From: Pirellulales bacterium
Lineage (GTDB): Bacteria > Planctomycetota > Planctomycetia > Pirellulales > JAEUIK01
Assembly (NCBI GenBank): GCA_019745975.1
Contig: JAIESQ010000063.1
Span: 1-58,956, forward strand
Length of the DNA: 58,956 bases
Reading direction: 5' to 3'
This document shows, one piece after another, positions 19,099 through 58,266 of this stretch. The notes beneath the pieces are model-generated. The model ran no database searches and had not been told where the DNA came from. It saw only the letters and a list, made by a program, of their open reading frames with translations. The stretch's first letter is position 1. Every line of letters begins with the position of its first letter. The position numbers were made by a program, and so were the translations under genes.

Positions 19099-20541
19099 CT
19101 AGCTATAGAGCGGCGCGATCGGCGCGCCGCGATTGAGCTGCGCGGGGCGACCTTGCAGATCGGCGATCGTCGTCGCCGGATCGATGCCCAGCGCCGCGTA
19201 GACCGTGGCCGCGATATCGGCGTGCGTGTAAGGTCGCGTGACTGGGAACGCGCCCACCGCATCCGAGCGGCCGATCACTTGCCCGCCGCGCACGCCCGCG
19301 CCGGCGAAAAAGCCCGAGAAGCAGTTCATCCAGTGATCGCGTCCCGGCTTCGTGAAATAGGGGGACGAACCATCCGGCTGCTTGATCTTGGGAGTGCGGC
19401 CGAATTCGCCCGCCACGACGACAAGCGTCTCGTCCAACAAGCCCAGCACGTGCATGTCTTCCAAGAGCGCCGAGATTGCCAGGTCGAATGGTGGGATCAA
19501 TCCTTTCAAGGCCTCGAAGCCGTTGTAGTGGGTGTCCCACAGCGCCTGGTAACTGATGTTCGCCTGCACGAGCGGAACGCCCGCCTCGATCAAGCGCCGC
19601 GCCAACAGCAGCGACTGGCCGAACAAGTGCCGGCCATAGCGATCGCGCAGGATTGGGCTTTCGCGCTCGAGCGCCAGGGCACCGGCCAGCTTGCCCGAGG
19701 TGAGCACATCGAAGGCGGCCTGCTGTTGGCCTGCGAACGACTGAGTTTCAGCCGCGGCGGCCAGCGCAACCCGCTGGCGGTCGATCTCGGTCAATAGTTC
19801 GCGCTTGCCCGACAGTCGCGAAATGCTCATGCCGCCAGTGAGGCTCAGGCTGGCATCGACTCGGTAGTCGGGCTTGTTGGGGTCGCGATCAAAACGGTAG
19901 GGATCGACCTTCGGCCCGAGGAAGCCGCCGCTTTGTCCGGGATAGCTTCCTGTCGCCGGATCGGTCACCTCGCCCGGCAGCACGACGCAGTTCGGCAGGC
20001 CATCGCCGCGGGGGCGCAGATATTCGAGCACCGAGCCCCAGCAGGGCCAGTCGCGGCGCGAAGCGGCCAGCGTCGCGCCGGCCGGCAACTCGTCGATGCC
20101 CCCCAACAGCCCGTGCACGGCCAGGCGATGATCGCCGAACGCGGGGTTCGACGCCAAGGTACGCACCAGCGCCAACTTGTCGGTCTGCCGGGCCAGCCGC
20201 GGCAAATGCTCGCACAGATACAAGCCGGGCACGGTGGTGCCGATCGGCGCGAATTCGCCGCGGTACTCGTCCGGCGCCTCGGGCTTGGGATCGAATGTAT
20301 CGAGATGGCTCGGCCCGCCGAACAGAAACACGAACAGCACCGACTTGGCGCGCCGCGTTGATTCGATCGCGCTTTCGCTGGCTGGGCGATTAGCGATGCG
20401 TTCCTTGGCGAGGGCACGGCCAGCCAAAACACCAGTGAGACTCATGCCCAGCAGGCTCGAGCAGCCGATCTCGATCAGTTGGCGCCGCGAAACGTGGTCG
20501 CGCGCCAGCGGGCTCGTAGCTGTAGAGATCGGCGCCGGCAT
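19099..20541 (-). CDS. DUF1501 domain exported protein
   Basis: A 480-residue protein typical of planctomycetes. The N-terminus has 'SRRQLIEIGCSSLLGMSLTGVLAG', a twin-arginine-like signal. 'SVLFVFLFGGPSHLDTFDPKPEAP' is the hallmark start of the DUF1501 domain, which has an alkaline phosphatase/sulfatase-like fold. 'GEFGRTPKI' and 'GRDHW' near the C-terminus are other signatures. In planctomycetes such genes usually follow a DUF1549/DUF1553 cytochrome-type gene; none is present here, so this copy stands alone. Substrate unknown. Confidence 0.92.
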   Translation of the reverse strand: MPAPISTATSPLARDHVSRRQLIEIGCSSLLGMSLTGVLAGRALAKERIANRPASESAIESTRRAKSVLFVFLFGGPSHLDTFDPKPEAPDEYRGEFAPIGTTVPGLYLCEHLPRLARQTDKLALVRTLASNPAFGDHRLAVHGLLGGIDELPAGATLAASRRDWPCWGSVLEYLRPRGDGLPNCVVLPGEVTDPATGSYPGQSGGFLGPKVDPYRFDRDPNKPDYRVDASLSLTGGMSISRLSGKRELLTEIDRQRVALAAAAETQSFAGQQQAAFDVLTSGKLAGALALERESPILRDRYGRHLFGQSLLLARRLIEAGVPLVQANISYQALWDTHYNGFEALKGLIPPFDLAISALLEDMHVLGLLDETLVVVAGEFGRTPKIKQPDGSSPYFTKPGRDHWMNCFSGFFAGAGVRGGQVIGRSDAVGAFPVTRPYTHADIAATVYAALGIDPATTIADLQGRPAQLNRGAPIAPLYS

Positions 20542-20594
20542 TGCGTGAAACTCCGCGTGCGTTGGCTCGCCGAGCGAGGGCCAGCGCTGTGGCT

Positions 20595-20727
20595 AGAAGC
20601 AGTATCAAAACCGGCGATGGACCGACGTCGGGTGCCACTGCAAGAAGCGTCTAGCAGTGCCCTATCGAACGTTGCACTGCTGGGCAAGCCAGCAGTGGCA
20701 CCCAAACAAGGTTTTGAAACTGCTTCC
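20595..20727. repeat. Dispersed inverted-repeat element, copy A
   Basis: A 133-base element with 17-base terminal inverted repeats (GAAGCAGTATCAAAACC at 20596-20612, its complement with one mismatch at 20710-20726). An internal perfect hairpin CACTGCTGG/CCAGCAGTG lies at 20675-20697. The same element occurs in opposite orientation at 27280-27419, and a remnant at 58222-58266. No coding capacity. It lies in the 281-base gap between glnE and the DUF1501 gene, where no gene is seen. It looks like a small non-autonomous mobile element. Confidence 0.8.
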
Positions 20728-20822
20728 AAGCGGAAGCGAGCGCCCACAGGATATCCGAAACGACGGCAGCTCGGCAAACAATCGGCTGCGAGCCACGGCC
20801 AGCTAAAAGAGTGCGCCTTAGT

Positions 20823-23800
20823 TCACCCCACCGCGGCCGTGGCCCCTTGCTGCGCGAATAGCCGATCGACGCATTGCCGCACGCGCTGCCGCGTATGCTC
20901 GTAGTCGGCCAGCAGGGCTTCGCGATCTTCATAACCCAGAAACCGCGCCAGCTTCGCCAGATCGATCGGGTCGTCGGGCAGTTCGTCGCGCGCGGTGGTG
21001 TTCAACAGCCGCAGCCGAGCTTCGATCGTCCGCAAGAACCGGTACGCCGTCGAGCAGAGCTCGTAGTCGGCGTCGTTCAAGTGGCCGGCCGCCCGCAGCG
21101 CCGTCAAGGCGTCGAGCGTGTTGGGTTCGACGATCGCCGGCTCGGCCGCGCCGTATTTCAACTGCAGCATCTGCACGGCGAACTCGATATCGACGAGGCC
21201 TCCCGGGCCGCGCTTCAAGCTGCCGCGAGCGACCGATTCCTCCAGCCGCCGTCGCATGTCGCGAATCGCCAAGGCATAACTGTCTTGCCAGGCCGTGGCG
21301 AACGTGCAGTCGCGCACCACGGCGGCCGCGTCGGCGCTGGCCCGCGCCGAGCCGTACACGACGCGCCCGCGGAGCAGGGCTTGTCGTTCCCAGATCGTGC
21401 CATGCCCCTCGGCGAAGTACCGCCGCAGCTCGTCGAAGCTCGTGGCCAAGGCCCCACTGCGGCCGGTCGGGCGGAGCCGCACGTCGACTTCGTAGAGTCG
21501 TCCGTACGGCCCGAGCTGACTGGCGATGCGGATGATCCGCTGCCCAAGCTCGCTGAAGAAGTGCTGGTTCGAAGTCGACTCAGCGCGCCGGGCGCGGCGG
21601 CCGGCGACGGTCGCGCCGTCGGCTTCGTAGAGGAAGATCAAATCGAGGTCGCTGTAGTAATTCAGCTCGCGACCGCCGAACTTGCCCATCGCCAGAATCA
21701 CCAGCTCGCAGGGCTGCCCGGCCTCGGGGCCGGAGTTGAGTGTCGGTTCGCCGAGCTTGGACGCCAGCTTGTCGTACTCGACCATCACGATCTGTTCGAG
21801 ACAGGCGTGCGCAATGTCCGACAGCACGCCGGTCGTGGCCTGCACGTCTTGCTTGCCGAGAATGTCGCGCACGCCGACGCGCAGTTGCTGGGCGTTCTTG
21901 AAGCTGTGCAGGATCGGCTCGATGTCTTCGGCCCCGCGGCACAAGTCGGCCAGCGTCTGCTGCAAGAAGTCGAGCGTTGGCAGCTTGTTGAGCACCAGGC
22001 TGTCCATCAGCTCGTCGATCATGCCCGGGTTGCTGATCAGGATGCCCGACAGATATTGACTCGACGCGCACAGCTCAACGTAGAGGCGTAGCGTGGGGGG
22101 GTTGAAGCTGAACAGCTCCCAGAGCACTCCCTTGCCACCGAGCGAATCGCTGACTTTCTCCAGCGTGATCAGCGTGCCGTCTGGGTCGGGCGTGGCGGCG
22201 ATGGCCGACAGCAAGCGCGGCGCGATCGACGCCAAAAAATGCCGGCAGCGGCGCGTCGACAGAAACCTGATCTTCTCCTCTGACAACGCGATCAAATTCT
22301 TGTACGCCAGCTCGATGTCGCGAAAACCGTACTTCGCCAGCACCTCGCGCACGCGCGCGGGGGCCGGATCGGGATCGAGCACGAGGTCGACTTCGGGCTC
22401 GGTCTGCGCGTCGTCGCGAAACGCGTCGTGCAGCAAGTGGTCGAGAATCCGCCGGTTGACCGCCGTCTTCGCTTCGTAGTCGGACTCGAACGCTTCGCGG
22501 GCGCTGCGATCGGGCCGGTCGGCGTAGCCTAGCCGGATCGCCAGGCGGCGCAGCTCGGTCGCGTCGTCGGGCAACAGATGCGTCTGCAAATCGAACATGA
22601 TCTGCAGGCGATGTTCGATGTTGCGCAGGAAGCAGTAGTTCTCCTCCAGAATCGACCGTTCCTGGTGCGTCAGGCAACCGACGCGCTCCAATTGCTGCAT
22701 GGCCGGCAGCGTACCGGTCACGCGCACCTCGGCCAGATCGCCGCCGTTCAAGAGTTGCAGAAACTGGATGACGAATTCGATGTCGCGGATGCCGCCGTGC
22801 CCCGTCTTGACGTTGCGCGAATTGGCCCCTTCGCGCGTGGTGCGCTGCTCGATGCGCCGCTTGAGCGCCTTGATGCCCGTGATGTCGGCCAGGCTGAGGT
22901 AGCGGCGAAAAATCCAGGGCTCGAGTTGCGTGAGAAACTCATGCCCCAGATCGAGATCGCCGGCGACGGGCCGGGCCTTGACGTAGGCCTGCCGCTCCCA
23001 GGTGCGCCCCAATACGTCGTAGTAGTGCAGCGCTTGCTCCAGGCTCGAGACCAGCGGCCCGCGCAGACCTTCGGGCCGTAGCCTTAAATCGACGCGATAC
23101 GCGGCGCCGTGCTCGGTGACTTCGGTCAACAACCGCACGACTTCGCGCGTCAGCCGATCGAAGAACTCTTGATTGCTCAGGCTGCGCTGACCATCGGTTT
23201 TGCCATCGGCGTCGAACAGGCAGATCAGGTCGATGTCGCTCGAGTAGTTGAGCTCGACGCCTCCAAGCTTGCCCATCCCCAGCACGACGTACCGCACAGG
23301 GCGGCCGTCGGCGGTGCGCGGCACCCCGCGCTTGGCCTCCAGCGCGCGGCGCGCATAGCGCACGGCGGCTTCGAGAATGGCGTCGGCCAACAGCGAGATT
23401 TGCCGGGTGACCGTTTCCAAGCGCTGGCCGCGGACGAAATCGCCGTAGCAGGTGCGCAATGTCTCGCGCCGCTTGTAACGCCGCAGCGCCTGCATCACGA
23501 CGCGTTCGTCGGGCAGGGCCTCGATTTCCGACCAGAGCTCTTCGACGAGCACCTCGCGCGCGACCGGCTGTCCTTCGGTGAGCCGCAACAGATCGTAGGC
23601 TTCGGCGTCGGTCACCAGCAGATCGCTCAGATATTGACTGGTCGAGAAGATCTGCAGCAGGATCGGCAGCGCTTCGCGATCGCGCTCGAAGAGCGTGGCC
23701 AGGCCCAAGGGGCTGCGCGTGGCCGCCACGAAGCGGTTGAGGTTGTTGAGCGCCATGTCGGGATCGCTCGTCCGCGGCAGATGCTCGGCGAGTTGACCGC

Positions 23801-23972
23801 ACATGTCGGCCAACAAGTCGAGCGTGATGCCCGAGACGGCCAGCCCTTGCAGGTTGGCGTGAGCGCGGCGCGGGTCTTCAAGCCCCCAGCCGCGGAGCCA
23901 GTCGGTGGCTTCGGCCGGGTGGTCGAGAAGCCGGCGGAGGCGTTCGAGGGTGGGCGGTTGATAATCTGCCAC
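20823..23972 (-). CDS. glnE: Bifunctional glutamine synthetase adenylyltransferase/deadenylase
   Basis: A 1049-residue protein, about 100 residues longer than E. coli GlnE. Two nucleotidyltransferase domains in tandem are marked by 'GMGKLGGVELNYSSDIDLICLFD' (about 230-252) and 'AMGKFGGRELNYYSDLDLIFLYE' in the C-terminal half, each followed by a PII-uridylyl-transferase-like helical region ('GHGGIRDIEFVIQFLQL' and 'GPGGLVDIEFAVQMLQLKY'). It adds and removes AMP on glutamine synthetase in response to PII and glutamine. Both active sites look intact. The start is a GTG without strong ribosome site; no in-frame ATG lies nearby upstream. Confidence 0.96.
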   Translation of the reverse strand: MADYQPPTLERLRRLLDHPAEATDWLRGWGLEDPRRAHANLQGLAVSGITLDLLADMCGQLAEHLPRTSDPDMALNNLNRFVAATRSPLGLATLFERDREALPILLQIFSTSQYLSDLLVTDAEAYDLLRLTEGQPVAREVLVEELWSEIEALPDERVVMQALRRYKRRETLRTCYGDFVRGQRLETVTRQISLLADAILEAAVRYARRALEAKRGVPRTADGRPVRYVVLGMGKLGGVELNYSSDIDLICLFDADGKTDGQRSLSNQEFFDRLTREVVRLLTEVTEHGAAYRVDLRLRPEGLRGPLVSSLEQALHYYDVLGRTWERQAYVKARPVAGDLDLGHEFLTQLEPWIFRRYLSLADITGIKALKRRIEQRTTREGANSRNVKTGHGGIRDIEFVIQFLQLLNGGDLAEVRVTGTLPAMQQLERVGCLTHQERSILEENYCFLRNIEHRLQIMFDLQTHLLPDDATELRRLAIRLGYADRPDRSAREAFESDYEAKTAVNRRILDHLLHDAFRDDAQTEPEVDLVLDPDPAPARVREVLAKYGFRDIELAYKNLIALSEEKIRFLSTRRCRHFLASIAPRLLSAIAATPDPDGTLITLEKVSDSLGGKGVLWELFSFNPPTLRLYVELCASSQYLSGILISNPGMIDELMDSLVLNKLPTLDFLQQTLADLCRGAEDIEPILHSFKNAQQLRVGVRDILGKQDVQATTGVLSDIAHACLEQIVMVEYDKLASKLGEPTLNSGPEAGQPCELVILAMGKFGGRELNYYSDLDLIFLYEADGATVAGRRARRAESTSNQHFFSELGQRIIRIASQLGPYGRLYEVDVRLRPTGRSGALATSFDELRRYFAEGHGTIWERQALLRGRVVYGSARASADAAAVVRDCTFATAWQDSYALAIRDMRRRLEESVARGSLKRGPGGLVDIEFAVQMLQLKYGAAEPAIVEPNTLDALTALRAAGHLNDADYELCSTAYRFLRTIEARLRLLNTTARDELPDDPIDLAKLARFLGYEDREALLADYEHTRQRVRQCVDRLFAQQGATAAVG

Positions 23973-26176: not shown

Positions 26177-26495
26177 AGGCGACGTGGCTGACGCGAACCG
26201 AATTGCAGCCTCTCAAAAGCGCTCGACAAACCGCATTTTACGGAGTCGTCCGGTGGCGCGGGAGGGGAATTCGAACCTGCGGCGAGAATCCCTTCGTCGA
26301 CTAATTTGCGCCGGCGCGAACAGCCAGCACAGCGTCTCTCTGATGAGCGCGTCAGGGAGTCGCGCGCGGCGGAGCCAGGCAAATTCGCGAGCCCATTCGC
26401 TTTTGACAAGCATTGCGAGCGTCGTAGGTTAGCGCTGTCGGATGGCGACCATTGGGGTGGCAATCCGCTCGGAATTGGGGAGGCGCCGCACGATT
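26177..26495. other. Divergent gap with a tRNA T-arm-like motif
   Basis: A 319-base gap between miaB and the PilZ-like gene. On the minus strand 26258-26285 reads like a tRNA 3' end (AGGTTCGAATTCCCC followed by TCCCGCGCCACC), but the T-stem does not pair properly and no matching acceptor strand is found upstream. It may be a relic; I do not call a tRNA. Otherwise no gene. Confidence 0.4.
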
Positions 26496-27236
26496 ATGGA
26501 AGAGACCGTCAACAAAGAGATCCCAGGGAAATCGTTGGCCAATCTGATCGCGTGGCTCAGCGTGTGTGTGCTGTCGGCCGCCTGGGGCGCCGGCATGAAT
26601 GCCGACTGGCAAGCCTATTGGAAGCAACTGGGCGCCTTCGGACTGGCCTCGGCCGTGGGGCTCAACGCGGCGTCGCGCGTGCGCGCCACCTACAAGCGCC
26701 GCGCCGAGCAAAGTGCGCTGGCGAGTCATCTGGAAGAACGCCTCTCGATCTTCGCCGATGAGCCGGAGCTCGATCCCCAGTTGCGGTCGATCGTCGGCCG
26801 CTTGCTCGAAGATGTCGAAGCGGACAACGGCGACAACGACAACGATAATCGCACGCGCTTTCCAGTGGCCTCGGGCTGGCCCGTGCTGGTTACTCCGCTG
26901 GCACCCAAGGGAGGGCCGAGCCGCCGCGTGACGACCACCCGGGCGGTGCTGCGAAATGTATCGCGGACCGGCGTTGGCCTGTTGCACTCGCTCGCCCTGG
27001 CCATTGGTCCCGCGCGCTTGACATGCCGGCTGCGCGATGGCCAGATCGTGTCGCTGGTGATCGAAATCCGCTGGTGCGAACGGCAGCCGGATGGGCGCTT
27101 CGCCAGCGGCGGCCGCTTCCTGGAAGTCACAAATCCCGATCCCAGAGAGCTGGCAGTCCATGCCCAGGGCTTGAACGCCGTCGAATCACTACCAGCGCCC
27201 TGCGGCCACGAGTGCGTCATGACCGTCGGCGGGTGA
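26496..27236 (+). CDS. Membrane protein with C-terminal PilZ-like domain
   Basis: A 246-residue protein. Start 26496 has GGGGAGG about 12 bases upstream. Two hydrophobic segments at about 13-35 and 45-62 anchor it. An acidic Asp/Asn stretch ('EADNGDNDNDN') leads to a C-terminal beta domain: 'VLRNVSRTGVGLLH' and 'FASGGRFLEV' resemble the second PilZ motif and the final strand of PilZ domains. The Arg pair of the first motif (RxxxR) may be 'RRVTTTR'. If so it could bind cyclic di-GMP. Family assignment is by pattern only. It lies between miaB (divergent) and repeat copy B. Confidence 0.55.
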   Translation: MEETVNKEIPGKSLANLIAWLSVCVLSAAWGAGMNADWQAYWKQLGAFGLASAVGLNAASRVRATYKRRAEQSALASHLEERLSIFADEPELDPQLRSIVGRLLEDVEADNGDNDNDNRTRFPVASGWPVLVTPLAPKGGPSRRVTTTRAVLRNVSRTGVGLLHSLALAIGPARLTCRLRDGQIVSLVIEIRWCERQPDGRFASGGRFLEVTNPDPRELAVHAQGLNAVESLPAPCGHECVMTVGG

Positions 27237-27279
27237 GTCGCGTTCGCCCCCGTGCGTGCGCGGCAGGTGCCTGCTACTA

Positions 27280-27419
27280 GAAACAGTTTCAAAACCTGGT
27301 TCGGGTGCCACCGGTGCCACTGCTGGCTTGGCCAGCAGTGCGGAGTTCGATACGGCACTGCTAGACGCTTCTTGCAGCGGCACCAGACGTCGGCTCAGCG
27401 TCAGTTTTGAAACTGCTTC
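27280..27419. repeat. Dispersed inverted-repeat element, copy B
   Basis: A 140-base copy of the element at 20595-20727, in opposite orientation. Left end GAAACAGTTTCAAAACC (27280-27296); right end complementary at 27404-27419 with one mismatch over 16. The internal hairpin CACTGCTGG/CCAGCAGTG is at 27318-27340. It carries a small duplication (GGTGCCACCGGTGCCAC) absent from copy A. The right end lies three bases from the stop of the small minus-strand gene at 27423. Confidence 0.8.
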
Positions 27420-27422
27420 TAC

Positions 27423-27676: not shown

Positions 27677-28357
27677 TCACCCCCTCAGCGGCTCCATCTT
27701 CCGGAAATACATCCACCAGATGCTGTCGAAAAGCTGAATCAGCGATCGCTTTGGCTCGATCATCTGAAGCTCGGCCCAGACCGCCACGTTTTCCGGACGC
27801 GCCAGGTCCGTTGCGATCCACTGCAGCGCATCTTCAATCCGCCTCTGATCCTTGACGCTGTCTTGTAACGACTTGCGGCCAGGCCACGACGGATTCATGT
27901 AGGCTCCAAAGATCGCTTGGTTGTCCAGAATCGGAATCAGGGCTGGTCGCTTCTTGTGGAGCACCTTGGTGGCGGTCGAGCTGGCGAAGCCCGGCCAGCT
28001 TGCAACCGTAGCGATCACAGCGGCGGTCGCCGTTCGCTCCTCTGCTGTCGTCGTCTCAAGCGGCTTCGATGTCAGTTGCCGCAGATCGACCGACGCTCCG
28101 CGTTCCAGGATGCTCTTGAAGCACTGGCCGGTCACGCGTGAATTCACCAGCAGCGTGACCGCCAAGTCCTCCGGAACAATTTGGTCAACAGGCGACGAAG
28201 GCGAGAATTCGAGGTACGAGTATCCATCGTCCGCTCGATAGGCGAGGAGCAGTTGCTCCACGTCAAGCACGACACGATCGAGGCTCTTAGCTCCGAGAAC
28301 TAGTTGCATTGACCACTCCTGCGGCGTGCGGGTCCTACCACGCGGCCCTGTCATCAT
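27677..28357 (-). CDS. DUF6308-like protein
   Basis: A 226-residue protein. Start at 28357 (ATGATG) has AGAAGGAG nine bases upstream; the open frame extends further upstream through repeats that are not protein-like. The block 'SSTATKVLHKKRPALIPILDNQAIFGAY' is the signature I associate with DUF6308 proteins, whose fold may be helix-hairpin-helix-like. The earlier part ('YRADDGYSYLEFSPSSPVDQIVPEDLAVTLLVNSRVT') is also typical. Function unknown. It is a single accessory gene flanked by repeats on both sides, and a strong divergent promoter lies 76 bases upstream. Confidence 0.6.
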   Translation of the reverse strand: MMTGPRGRTRTPQEWSMQLVLGAKSLDRVVLDVEQLLLAYRADDGYSYLEFSPSSPVDQIVPEDLAVTLLVNSRVTGQCFKSILERGASVDLRQLTSKPLETTTAEERTATAAVIATVASWPGFASSTATKVLHKKRPALIPILDNQAIFGAYMNPSWPGRKSLQDSVKDQRRIEDALQWIATDLARPENVAVWAELQMIEPKRSLIQLFDSIWWMYFRKMEPLRG

Positions 28358-28432
28358 GACGCCCCGCTCCTTCTCGGCCAAGGCAGCCCGCTCCGCCGAG
28401 TGGCCATTTTTGCACGTGGCCATTTTTGGCCC

Positions 28433-28462
28433 TTGACAAGTGGTCATAAATATGTACATAAT
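28433..28462 (+). promoter_or_regulatory. Strong promoter overlapping a TATGTACATA palindrome
   Basis: TTGACA at 28433-28438 and CATAAT at 28457-28462 with an 18-base spacer. The ten-base perfect palindrome TATGTACATA (28451-28460) covers the -10 region and would suit a dimeric repressor. The promoter points right, into noncoding palindrome-rich DNA, away from the DUF6308 gene. A minus-strand -10 (TATTATG) in the same A/T-rich patch may serve that gene. Confidence 0.5.
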
Positions 28463-28511
28463 AGGCGCGAGCCTTGAGTCCCGAGGCTTGAGAACGGATA
28501 CGCAAGGGTGC

Positions 28512-28678
28512 CATGCCCACGCTCGTCGTGGGCATGCCTGCGTTCGGTTCCCTGAAAACTGAACACCGAGCACTGAAACTAGCCACCACAGGAACCACCT
28601 TGGCGCGCCGGACTGCGCGCTGCACACACCGTGGCACGGCCATCCTGGCCGTGATCTCACATGGGCTAGAAGCCCATG
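28512..28678. repeat. Cluster of three perfect hairpins
   Basis: Perfect inverted repeats: CATGCCCACG/CGTGGGCATG (28512-28536, five-base loop), CACGGCCA/TGGCCGTG (28635-28653, three-base loop), CATGGGCT/AGCCCATG (28660-28678, three-base loop). The last two contain TGGCC/GGGCT themes typical of REP-like dispersed palindromes. No protein-coding frame fits. Part of a noncoding stretch from 28358 to 29304. Confidence 0.65.
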
Positions 28679-28730
28679 CCACGGCTGCGTCCACCCTGCG
28701 CGCCGCGATTGCAAACATCCCATTGACTTG

Positions 28731-57199: not shown

Positions 57200-57203
57200 C
57201 GTG

Positions 57204-58226
57204 ATGCAACCGATCGCTCCGCCGGTCGCCGTCGCCTTGTTGGCAGCGCTGGCCGCCGGCTCGCTGGCGATGTGGGTGCTCGCGGTGCGCCGGTTGCGTG
57301 CCGGCGAGCCGCTCATCTCGTTCGAGCCGCGCCGGCCCGTGCCGTGGGGTGTCGCGGAGTTCGTGCTAATCATCCTCTTGTACTTTGTGATTGGCGGGCT
57401 GGTAGCCCGATTCTTGTTTGACGATCCTGGCGGCGGTGTGAAGTCGAGTCGCGCCACGACAATTGGCTTGCTGCTGACAGGGTTGGCAAGTCTGGCCGTG
57501 ATCGGCGGCGGCGCGCTGGTACTAGTGCGCGTGGCGGGCGCGACGTGGCGCGATCTGGGTTGGTCGCGACGCGATCTGTGGGGCGACTTGCGGCTGGGGC
57601 TGGCTGCCGGGCTGGCGATCACCGCGCCGGTCTTTGCGGTGCAGTCGATCGTCACGACTGGGTTTGGTTTGAAGTCGGAGCATCCACTGATCGAGCTGGT
57701 CGAGCGCGAGCGAACGTTTTCCGTCTACTTAGTAGCACTGTTTCTGGCCGTTGGCGTGGCACCGCTGGCCGAGGAGTTCTTGTTCCGCGTGCTGTTGCAA
57801 GGCTGGCTCGAAGCGCGGCAGACGCGCGCCGCCGCCGAGCGGCAGCTCAACGATGCGCTCGCGGCCCAACTAGCATCGCCAGCGGCCGCACTCGACGCGA
57901 CTGGTACCTCGTCGACCGACGCCGACAATCCCTACGCCGCGCCACGGATAACGCCAGAGCCAACGCACTCGAGCGCCGCGCCGATTAACGACGAAATCGA
58001 CCTGGTCGCCGGTCAGCTCGTGCCGGCATGGTGGCCGCTGGTCACGAGCGCCGCGATCTTCGCCGCGCTGCACGTCACGCAAGGGCCCGACCCGATCGCA
58101 TTATTTCCGCTGGCGCTGGTGCTGGGCTACCTGTATCGACAAACGCACCGGCTGCTGCCATCACTGGTGGCGCACGCCTTCCTCAATGCGGCCAGCATGC
58201 TGCTCTTGTGGCTGAACCTGGGTTGA
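57204..58226 (+). CDS. CPBP-family intramembrane metalloprotease
   Basis: A 340-residue multi-pass membrane protein starting four bases after pgsA (GTG 57201 is an alternative). Motif 1 EEFLFR (EExxxR) follows 'GVAPLA', motif 2 is 'FAALHVTQG' and motif 3 'LVAHAFLNAASML', giving the Glu/His set of the CAAX-processing/bacteriocin-processing (Abi) family. A hydrophilic insertion of about 90 residues between motifs 1 and 2 is rich in Ala/Asp/Pro. The stop codon lies in the edge of a repeat remnant (58222-58266). Confidence 0.88.
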   Translation: MQPIAPPVAVALLAALAAGSLAMWVLAVRRLRAGEPLISFEPRRPVPWGVAEFVLIILLYFVIGGLVARFLFDDPGGGVKSSRATTIGLLLTGLASLAVIGGGALVLVRVAGATWRDLGWSRRDLWGDLRLGLAAGLAITAPVFAVQSIVTTGFGLKSEHPLIELVERERTFSVYLVALFLAVGVAPLAEEFLFRVLLQGWLEARQTRAAAERQLNDALAAQLASPAAALDATGTSSTDADNPYAAPRITPEPTHSSAAPINDEIDLVAGQLVPAWWPLVTSAAIFAALHVTQGPDPIALFPLALVLGYLYRQTHRLLPSLVAHAFLNAASMLLLWLNLG

Positions 58227-58266
58227 AGACCTTACTGGGTGCCACCGCTGGCTTGTCCAGCAGTGC
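58222..58266. repeat. Remnant of the dispersed inverted-repeat element, copy C
   Basis: The minus strand reads GGCACTGCTGGACAAGCC and onward as in copy A (20674-20720) with scattered mismatches; only about a third of the element remains. Its outer end overlaps the stop codon (58224-58226) of the CPBP gene. Confidence 0.65.

Follow-up and report, generated by a model that had tools for sequence, protein, structure and literature searches.

A REPIN within IS5-type ends: a probable chimeric MITE in the genome of a Pirellulales bacterium

REPINs are treated as repeats moved by RAYTs in the parts consulted of two earlier papers (Bertels and Rainey 2011, PMC3116915; PMC8049555), and the second describes them there as duplicated by their RAYT and vertically inherited. 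The examined parts of a third paper (PMC3733652) report, for Anabaena variabilis and Halothiobacillus neapolitanus, REP dimers nested in longer palindromes, for Pseudomonas, REPs together with stem-loop TIRs, and also Y1 transposases flanked by TIRs; the Planctomycetes are named in those parts, and the repeat described below does not occur in them. In the titles and abstract beginnings of the open-licence papers that literature searches listed, neither a REPIN inside IS5-type ends nor the present repeats in planctomycetes were found. The MITE as a kind of element is known, and the chimeric variant reported here is new.

The window, that is, the whole stretch of 58,956 nucleotides that was analysed, had been predicted to contain two full copies of an inverted-repeat element in opposite orientation. 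Both copies are present, copy 1 on the (+) strand and copy 2 on the (-) strand, and they align with each other over their whole length (82%, E 4e-38). The terminal inverted repeats of about 17 bases given in the original prediction correspond to a 17-bp TIR at both ends of each copy, and its nine-bp hairpin, CACTGCTGG/CCAGCAGTG, is found in both; a second palindrome adjoins this hairpin as its partner in the element. The predicted extent was exact for copy 2 (27280-27419, - strand; TA at 27278-27279 and 27420-27421), while for copy 1 the predicted 20595-20727 has to be narrowed to 20596-20726. The elements are accordingly 131 bp (copy 1) and 140 bp (copy 2) in length, copy 2 owing its extra length to an internal duplication of 9 bp, GTGGCACCG, that adjoins REP-R.

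Copy 1, read on the (+) strand, begins next to a TA (20594-20595), the left target-site copy, which is followed by the IS5-type left TIR (20596-20612), a variable left arm (20613-20629) and the REP-L palindrome (20630-20660) with its GGGTGC tag and CACTGC...GCAGTG. The REP-L loop is a AAGAAGCG variant, one base above the consensus length. A variable spacer (20661-20673) separates REP-L from the inverted palindrome REP-R (20674-20703), which carries the perfect 9-bp stem; a variable right arm (20704-20709) and the right TIR (20710-20726) complete the element. The adjoining CA (20727-20728) is a decayed right target-site copy if TA was duplicated. Relative to the 17-bp consensus, the left and right TIRs have 1 and 0 mismatches in copy 1, and 1 and 1 in copy 2. 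The remnant predicted near 58236-58266 is a lone REP palindrome (58237-58266, + strand) without a terminal repeat, starting 10 bp past the stop of the gene at 57201-58226.

The genome itself (G000) is a draft of 6,976,653 bases (6.98 Mb) in 204 contigs. An alignment of 30 genome-wide copies with copy 2 showed homology from TA to TA and no evident likeness in the flanks. Read inwards from the left end, the consensus consists of TA, the 17-bp TIR GAAGCAGTTTCAAAACC, a 17-bp arm, REP-L, a 13-bp spacer, REP-R, a 6-bp arm, the right TIR and TA. Consensus REP-L is GGGTGC-CACTGCTAG-CTCGT-CTAGCAGTG-C, and REP-R is its inverted partner with the stem named above.

DNA search of the draft gave 273 first-look candidates; the 40 that were scored gave 40 near-full matches, together with additional opposite-strand or partial ones. 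When a 16-mer of the end was searched for with up to 2 mismatches in the whole genome, it was found in 105 + 107 places (212 ends), against 1 + 0 for the reversed control, which is far beyond chance and corresponds to about 106 elements. In a sample of 1,658,956 bases (1.66 Mb; the window together with 80 stretches, each of 20 kb), the profile detected 67 places, comprising 32 composites (REPs within TIRs) with both ends, 14 two-REP places and 21 others. Some of the 14 two-REP places lacking both ends are truncated composites, and the 21 others are lone REPs or right halves. Scaled to the genome, the 32 composites of the sample give about 135 whole elements. Searching the genome with the consensus, as had been suggested, thus revealed further copies with terminal repeats, and the expectation of hundreds genome-wide proved too high for whole elements, which number about 100-135. 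A pattern with a loop one base too long, CACTGCTNGNNNNNNCNAGCAGTG, matched 2 places and was left out of the counts.

No transposase with such ends had been seen in the window, and we found none there either. An insertion sequence (IS) with matching ends, which the original prediction recommended looking for, is present in other genomes of the order, while the own genome yielded a decayed end. Of the order's 296 genomes, 89 carry the pattern TAGAAGCAGTTTCAAAAC with at most 2 mismatches; single matches may be due to chance, since in many genomes the reversed control likewise gave one hit or a few. Among the matches listed, G157, G059 and G076 have inverted TIR pairs at distances (from TA to TA) of 924, 924 and 921 bp, and each of these three units of about 920 bp contains two overlapping frames. 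The consensus end, 18 bp including TA, is exactly both ends of the 924-bp unit at G157:C1:1163198-1164121. The proteins of the G157 unit, the sole one tested, matched the Pfam families DUF4096 (orfA) and DDE_Tnp_1 (orfB); with NCBIfam NF033580 (IS5 family), orfB scored 116.3 bits at a cut-off of 110, and orfA scored 97.4, below the cut-off. The change of frame occurs in all three units at A's followed by G's, an arrangement that would fit programmed frameshifting. In L057, the stop codon of orfB falls within the TIR. We take the IS units with these ends and a two-frame transposase to be of the IS427-type group, a group that makes duplications of 2-4 bp. Related ends at distances of about 880-917 bp bound further IS copies in L060, L078, L079, L097 and L099.

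Other genomes contain short elements with related ends and differing interiors, for example L063, L064, L069, L075 and L076, whose right ends were partly read by eye. In view of such short elements, IS5-type MITEs look common in the order. IS5-type ends also adjoin other palindromes, namely GGGGACTGTCCCC in L068 (G037:C75) and GGCTGGGGTC-type ones in L067 (G039:C6) and L073 (G225:C21); these three may be additional composites in which IS ends are combined with REP-like repeats.

In the own draft genome, the L057 transposase had a single match at E <= 1e-5, a decayed 40-residue end at C127:19109-19228. Within the sample, all 31 TIR pairs up to 2.5 kb apart (each end with <=4 mismatches) span 127-144 bp from TA to TA, so that no full IS with these ends was seen in the sample. 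The intact IS5 partner may be missing from the 204-contig assembly rather than from the genome. In G010:C1, a single-contig genome, there are 28 IS5-type transposase matches (about 34-40% identity), many of them with one in-frame TAG. A TA or CTAG target points to IS630, and this family was considered as the source of the ends. It was rejected: the element was unmatched around the 2 PF13358 matches here, and the IS with the exact ends belongs to the IS5 family.

The joints of the element were assessed in 55 composites. TA is found at the left joint in 37, at the right joint in 32 and on both sides in 27, and among these 27 copies, 13 read C-TA...TA-G and 14 read otherwise. Direct repeats of 3-9 bp were looked for at the composite joints and none were found. 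TA on both sides in the absence of a longer repeat favours a duplication of TA with a liking for CTAG; for the 13 of 27 copies within CTAG, a duplication of all 4 bp is also conceivable. The flanks of 54 composites were then joined with one TA and matched against the examined loci. The only joint with matches was that of the composite in L014 (C184), which had matches in nine other loci and at another place within its own. This composite is inserted into the spacer of a different palindromic repeat, GGGGACGGGAGTCGTTTCCGG, which is regained when the flanks are joined with one TA; the joined site is equal in length to two unfilled paralogues and one base above the other eight. It is a near-empty paralogous site in a repeat family with a spacer that varies by one base in length, and its C-TA-G fits a duplication of 2 or 4 bp. 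Regarding the proposed comparison of empty sites for target-site duplications, then, what fits a single TA is one near-empty paralogous site rather than a true empty site of a sister strain.

The host repeat is itself part of a second palindromic repeat pair, GGGGACGGGAGTCGTTTCCGG...CCGGAAACGACTCCCGTCCCC, whose members are separated by about 35 bases and which occurs in many places of the own genome (L014:44-120, L153:4123-4210, L144:7447-7531, L047:1338-1419, L137:16-88, L134:6534-6618, L124:9946-10026, L050:1164-1239, L136:12863-12966 and L114:19322-19398). An exact 18-mer of it has 18 occurrences in 11 loci of the sample. It lies near RAYT-like genes in L047 and L050, and these genes are perhaps its own.

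The interior of the element is a REPIN, composed of two head-to-head inverted REP palindromes with a variable spacer. The bases on the outer side of both REP stems are GGGTGC; the superfamily tags GTAG and CGTC are absent beside the stems. A search of related planctomycetes, which had also been suggested, was productive: at E <= 0.001 the element matched 32 of 57 genomes (the own included), among the matches listed for the most part within the REP core, and the REP occurs across the order without IS-type ends. Fifteen Y1_Tnp loci (PF01797, above its cut-off) are present in the own genome. In three of them (L049, L051 and L053) the REP stands inverted on both sides, the downstream REP of L051 being 550 bp away from the gene, with half an element nearby; in the remaining loci the REP is on one side or neither. 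The three REP-flanked genes had NCBIfam NF047646 (REP-associated tyrosine transposase) as their best match, at 71.7-78.5 bits with a cut-off of 80, and an HVH motif was read in the sequence of the RAYT-like (HUH/Y1) genes. The L053 protein had no match in PDB at E <= 0.01. Further RAYT-like genes of the own genome, without this REP on both sides, were seen in L040, L042, L043, L045, L046, L047, L050 and L054.

When the L053 protein was used as the query, 25 of the 57 genomes matched at E <= 1e-10; at this threshold G024, a carrier of composites, had no match to the L053 RAYT branch. Thirty loci were returned. In eight of them, REP matches of 23-30 bases lie on either side of the gene; two of the eight are in the own genome and six in G002, G014, G020, G038, G041 and G049. 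One REP is turned round in L249, and L261 has a 23-base match on one side. Among the 11 loci with >=52% identity, 8 have the REP on both sides (the others being L253, L274 and L275), and among the 19 below this value 0 do, L255 having 16-base partial REP matches. This split indicates that the REP accompanies this RAYT branch, and does so in six families of the order, a range that seems to us, as an impression, unusually wide for such a repeat. Given that the interior is a REPIN with a history of its own, the element is a chimera of two transposition systems.

The association of the two layers was assessed with a TIR-pair search in the sample (outer length 100-175 bp), made without use of the REPs. 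It returned 34 entries, representing 32 distinct elements, and REPs were present in 32 of the 32. Conversely, of the sample's 46 two-REP places, 32 extend to the outer ends on both sides, and this location of the REPIN mostly between IS5-type ends points to another route of multiplication. The pattern GTTTCAAAAC-N(4-34)-GGGTGCCACTGC was found in 4 of 396 genomes, with 57 + 51 hits in the own genome, 2 in G024, 5 in G066 and 1 in G102, the control having no hits among those listed; this rarity of composites is counted against the reading that we prefer. The composites of G024 and G066, which belong to one genus, have other arms and spacers, similar in length to those of the own element. In G066, at least 10 places have a TIR-like left end ahead of a REP, and the best-kept of its ends, TAGAGCCGGTTTCAAAAC, is an end of an IS5-type IS in G024 (L078). 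The G024 and G066 composites are compatible with a common ancestor shared with the own element and with a separate origin. The G102 composite, which has a shorter arm and lies at a contig end, looks separate from them.

Could a RAYT alone move the REPIN, the outer repeats being a palindromic target or an extended RAYT recognition site? We regard this as improbable. In other genomes the outer repeats bound complete IS5-family ISs, the homology shared by the copies ends at TA-TIR rather than at the REPs, and at the REP-flanked RAYT genes L049 and L053 the match to the element is confined to the REPs, its ends being unmatched. None of the 32 distinct TIR pairs is empty, which likewise speaks against a mere target, though the published cases fit this too: in the examined parts of PMC3733652, REP dimers lie in longer palindromes in Anabaena variabilis and Halothiobacillus neapolitanus, and REP-less targets were not found. 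Those cases favour movement by the RAYT alone, as do the RAYT-like genes with the same REPs in the own genome and the failure to find an intact IS5 partner in the draft.

Sequence variation was compared among the parts of the 55 composites, which are the best matches to copy 1 plus the sample set and hence not a random set. The departure from the consensus was 0.022 for REP-R and 0.051 for REP-L, 0.082 and 0.074 for the TIRs, 0.147 and 0.176 for the arms, and 0.245 for the spacer. Counting all differences, the REPs differed in 120 of 3291 cells and the TIRs in 146 of 1867 (P = 2e-10), with 370 of 1979 for arms and spacer together; private substitutions amounted to 36 of 3291 cells in the REPs and 32 of 1867 in the TIRs, a difference short of significance (P = 0.07). 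Where TIR decay was greatest (14 copies), 3.6% of REP-R and 5.0% of REP-L differed, and the corresponding values in the 14 copies with the best TIRs were 2.4% and 6.2%. The set found with the TIRs alone (34 entries) gave 10.0% for the TIRs, 3.5% for REP-R and 2.8% for the REP-L ends. The lower variation of the REPs than of the TIRs indicates that the source lineages kept the REPs; they may also be retained after insertion, which the total counts favour and the private substitutions do not significantly support. Among the 55 copies, neither REP stem had a double (compensatory) change, the long stem had 1 and the TIR stem 8, indicating that pairing alone is not what is kept. Between the own genome and G066, a double change from T-A to G-C was seen in REP-R.

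These values bear on the view that the REPs are inert filler in a plain IS5 deletion derivative, with the outer mechanism as in the preferred reading. We hold this possible, though rather unlikely. That the REPs stay nearer to the consensus than the TIRs (at the P of 2e-10 given above), and far nearer than arms and spacer, speaks against it, as does the retention of the REPs by composites of another family despite other arms and spacers. In its favour, ends suffice for a MITE, the private substitutions separate REPs from TIRs only at P = 0.07, and G024 carries composites without a match to the L053 RAYT branch at E <= 1e-10.

Turning to the genomic context, 26 of the 32 composites of the sample lie beyond called genes, 18 between co-directional, 5 between convergent and 3 between divergent gene pairs; these classes are rough, since the gene caller missed a Pfam-supported gene at 27677-28723. 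Copy 1 is located between a DUF1501 gene (19099-20541) and glnE (20823-23972), and copy 2 behind a PilZ-domain gene (26442-27236). A family of structured RNAs or transcription terminators, without any mobile element, would agree with this location outside called genes and with the strong predicted fold; we consider it highly improbable, because the composites of the sample are spread over both contig strands (17 on + and 15 on -; n = 32) and over all three kinds of gene pair, because they possess TIRs and TA joints, and because the window search gave no Rfam family at the gathering score. An inserted element might still have an RNA effect on its neighbour genes.

Collectively, we conclude that the element is very probably a MITE of the IS5 type that bears a RAYT REPIN as payload and is moved in trans by an IS5 transposase. 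The original prediction of a non-autonomous element moved in trans agrees with the sharp TIR boundaries, the TA on both sides in 27 of 55 copies, the near-empty site and the matching ISs elsewhere. An IS5-type DDE transposase, supplied in trans, would act on the 17-bp ends, and insertion would occur at TA, preferably CTAG, with duplication of TA. The inner REPIN would belong to RAYT genes still bordered by the same REPs and, once placed between IS ends, would have spread in its own genome mainly as cargo of the outer unit. Homology of the ends supports this putative outer mechanism, and the link to the RAYT supports the proposed identity of the interior. That the copies were moved by the IS5 transposase, or by either enzyme, is what we infer from sequence comparison, and the order of assembly is likewise a matter of inference, as is any present action of the RAYT on the inner part.

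An extension of this reading is a doubly mobile element, in which an IS5-type DDE transposase acts on the outer ends and a RAYT on the REPs, both aiding spread or upkeep. We judge it unlikely, and slightly more so than at first because G024 has composites without a match to the RAYT branch. If it were true, a REPIN in IS ends would be a recurrent second multiplication route for the REPIN population, and L067 and L068, where IS5-type ends surround other palindromes, would add to the cases. Under the preferred reading of a MITE with a REPIN payload, REPINs borne by IS ends may explain the earlier reports of REP dimers in longer palindromes, and the composite permits a test of which of two unrelated transposases moves the unit.

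Compared with known systems, the element resembles IS5-family ISs and their MITEs in its end sequence, in the TA beside the ends, in its lack of coding capacity and in its many copies. It differs from IS5-family MITEs in that its interior is a REPIN of another transposase family, unlike the interior of L057 when compared by eye, and in that no intact partner IS was found in the own draft genome. With REPIN/RAYT systems, as described in the consulted parts of Bertels and Rainey 2011 (PMC3116915), it shares the inverted REP pair, the variable spacer and the presence of the REPs at the borders of RAYT-like genes; in contrast to those systems, its REPIN lies within DDE-type ends and its tag is GGGTGC, not GTAG. 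Like the repeats in the examined parts of PMC3733652, it has a REP pair nested in an outer inverted repeat, with no REP-less outer repeats found; those parts, however, refer to the outer repeat as a target, without tying it to an IS, whereas the outer repeat of the present element corresponds to the ends of an IS family. Finally, the IS elements that insert into REPs, in the consulted part of PMC1525189, resemble the present case in that IS and REP are physically close, but the nesting is reversed, the REPs of the element described here lying inside IS-type ends.
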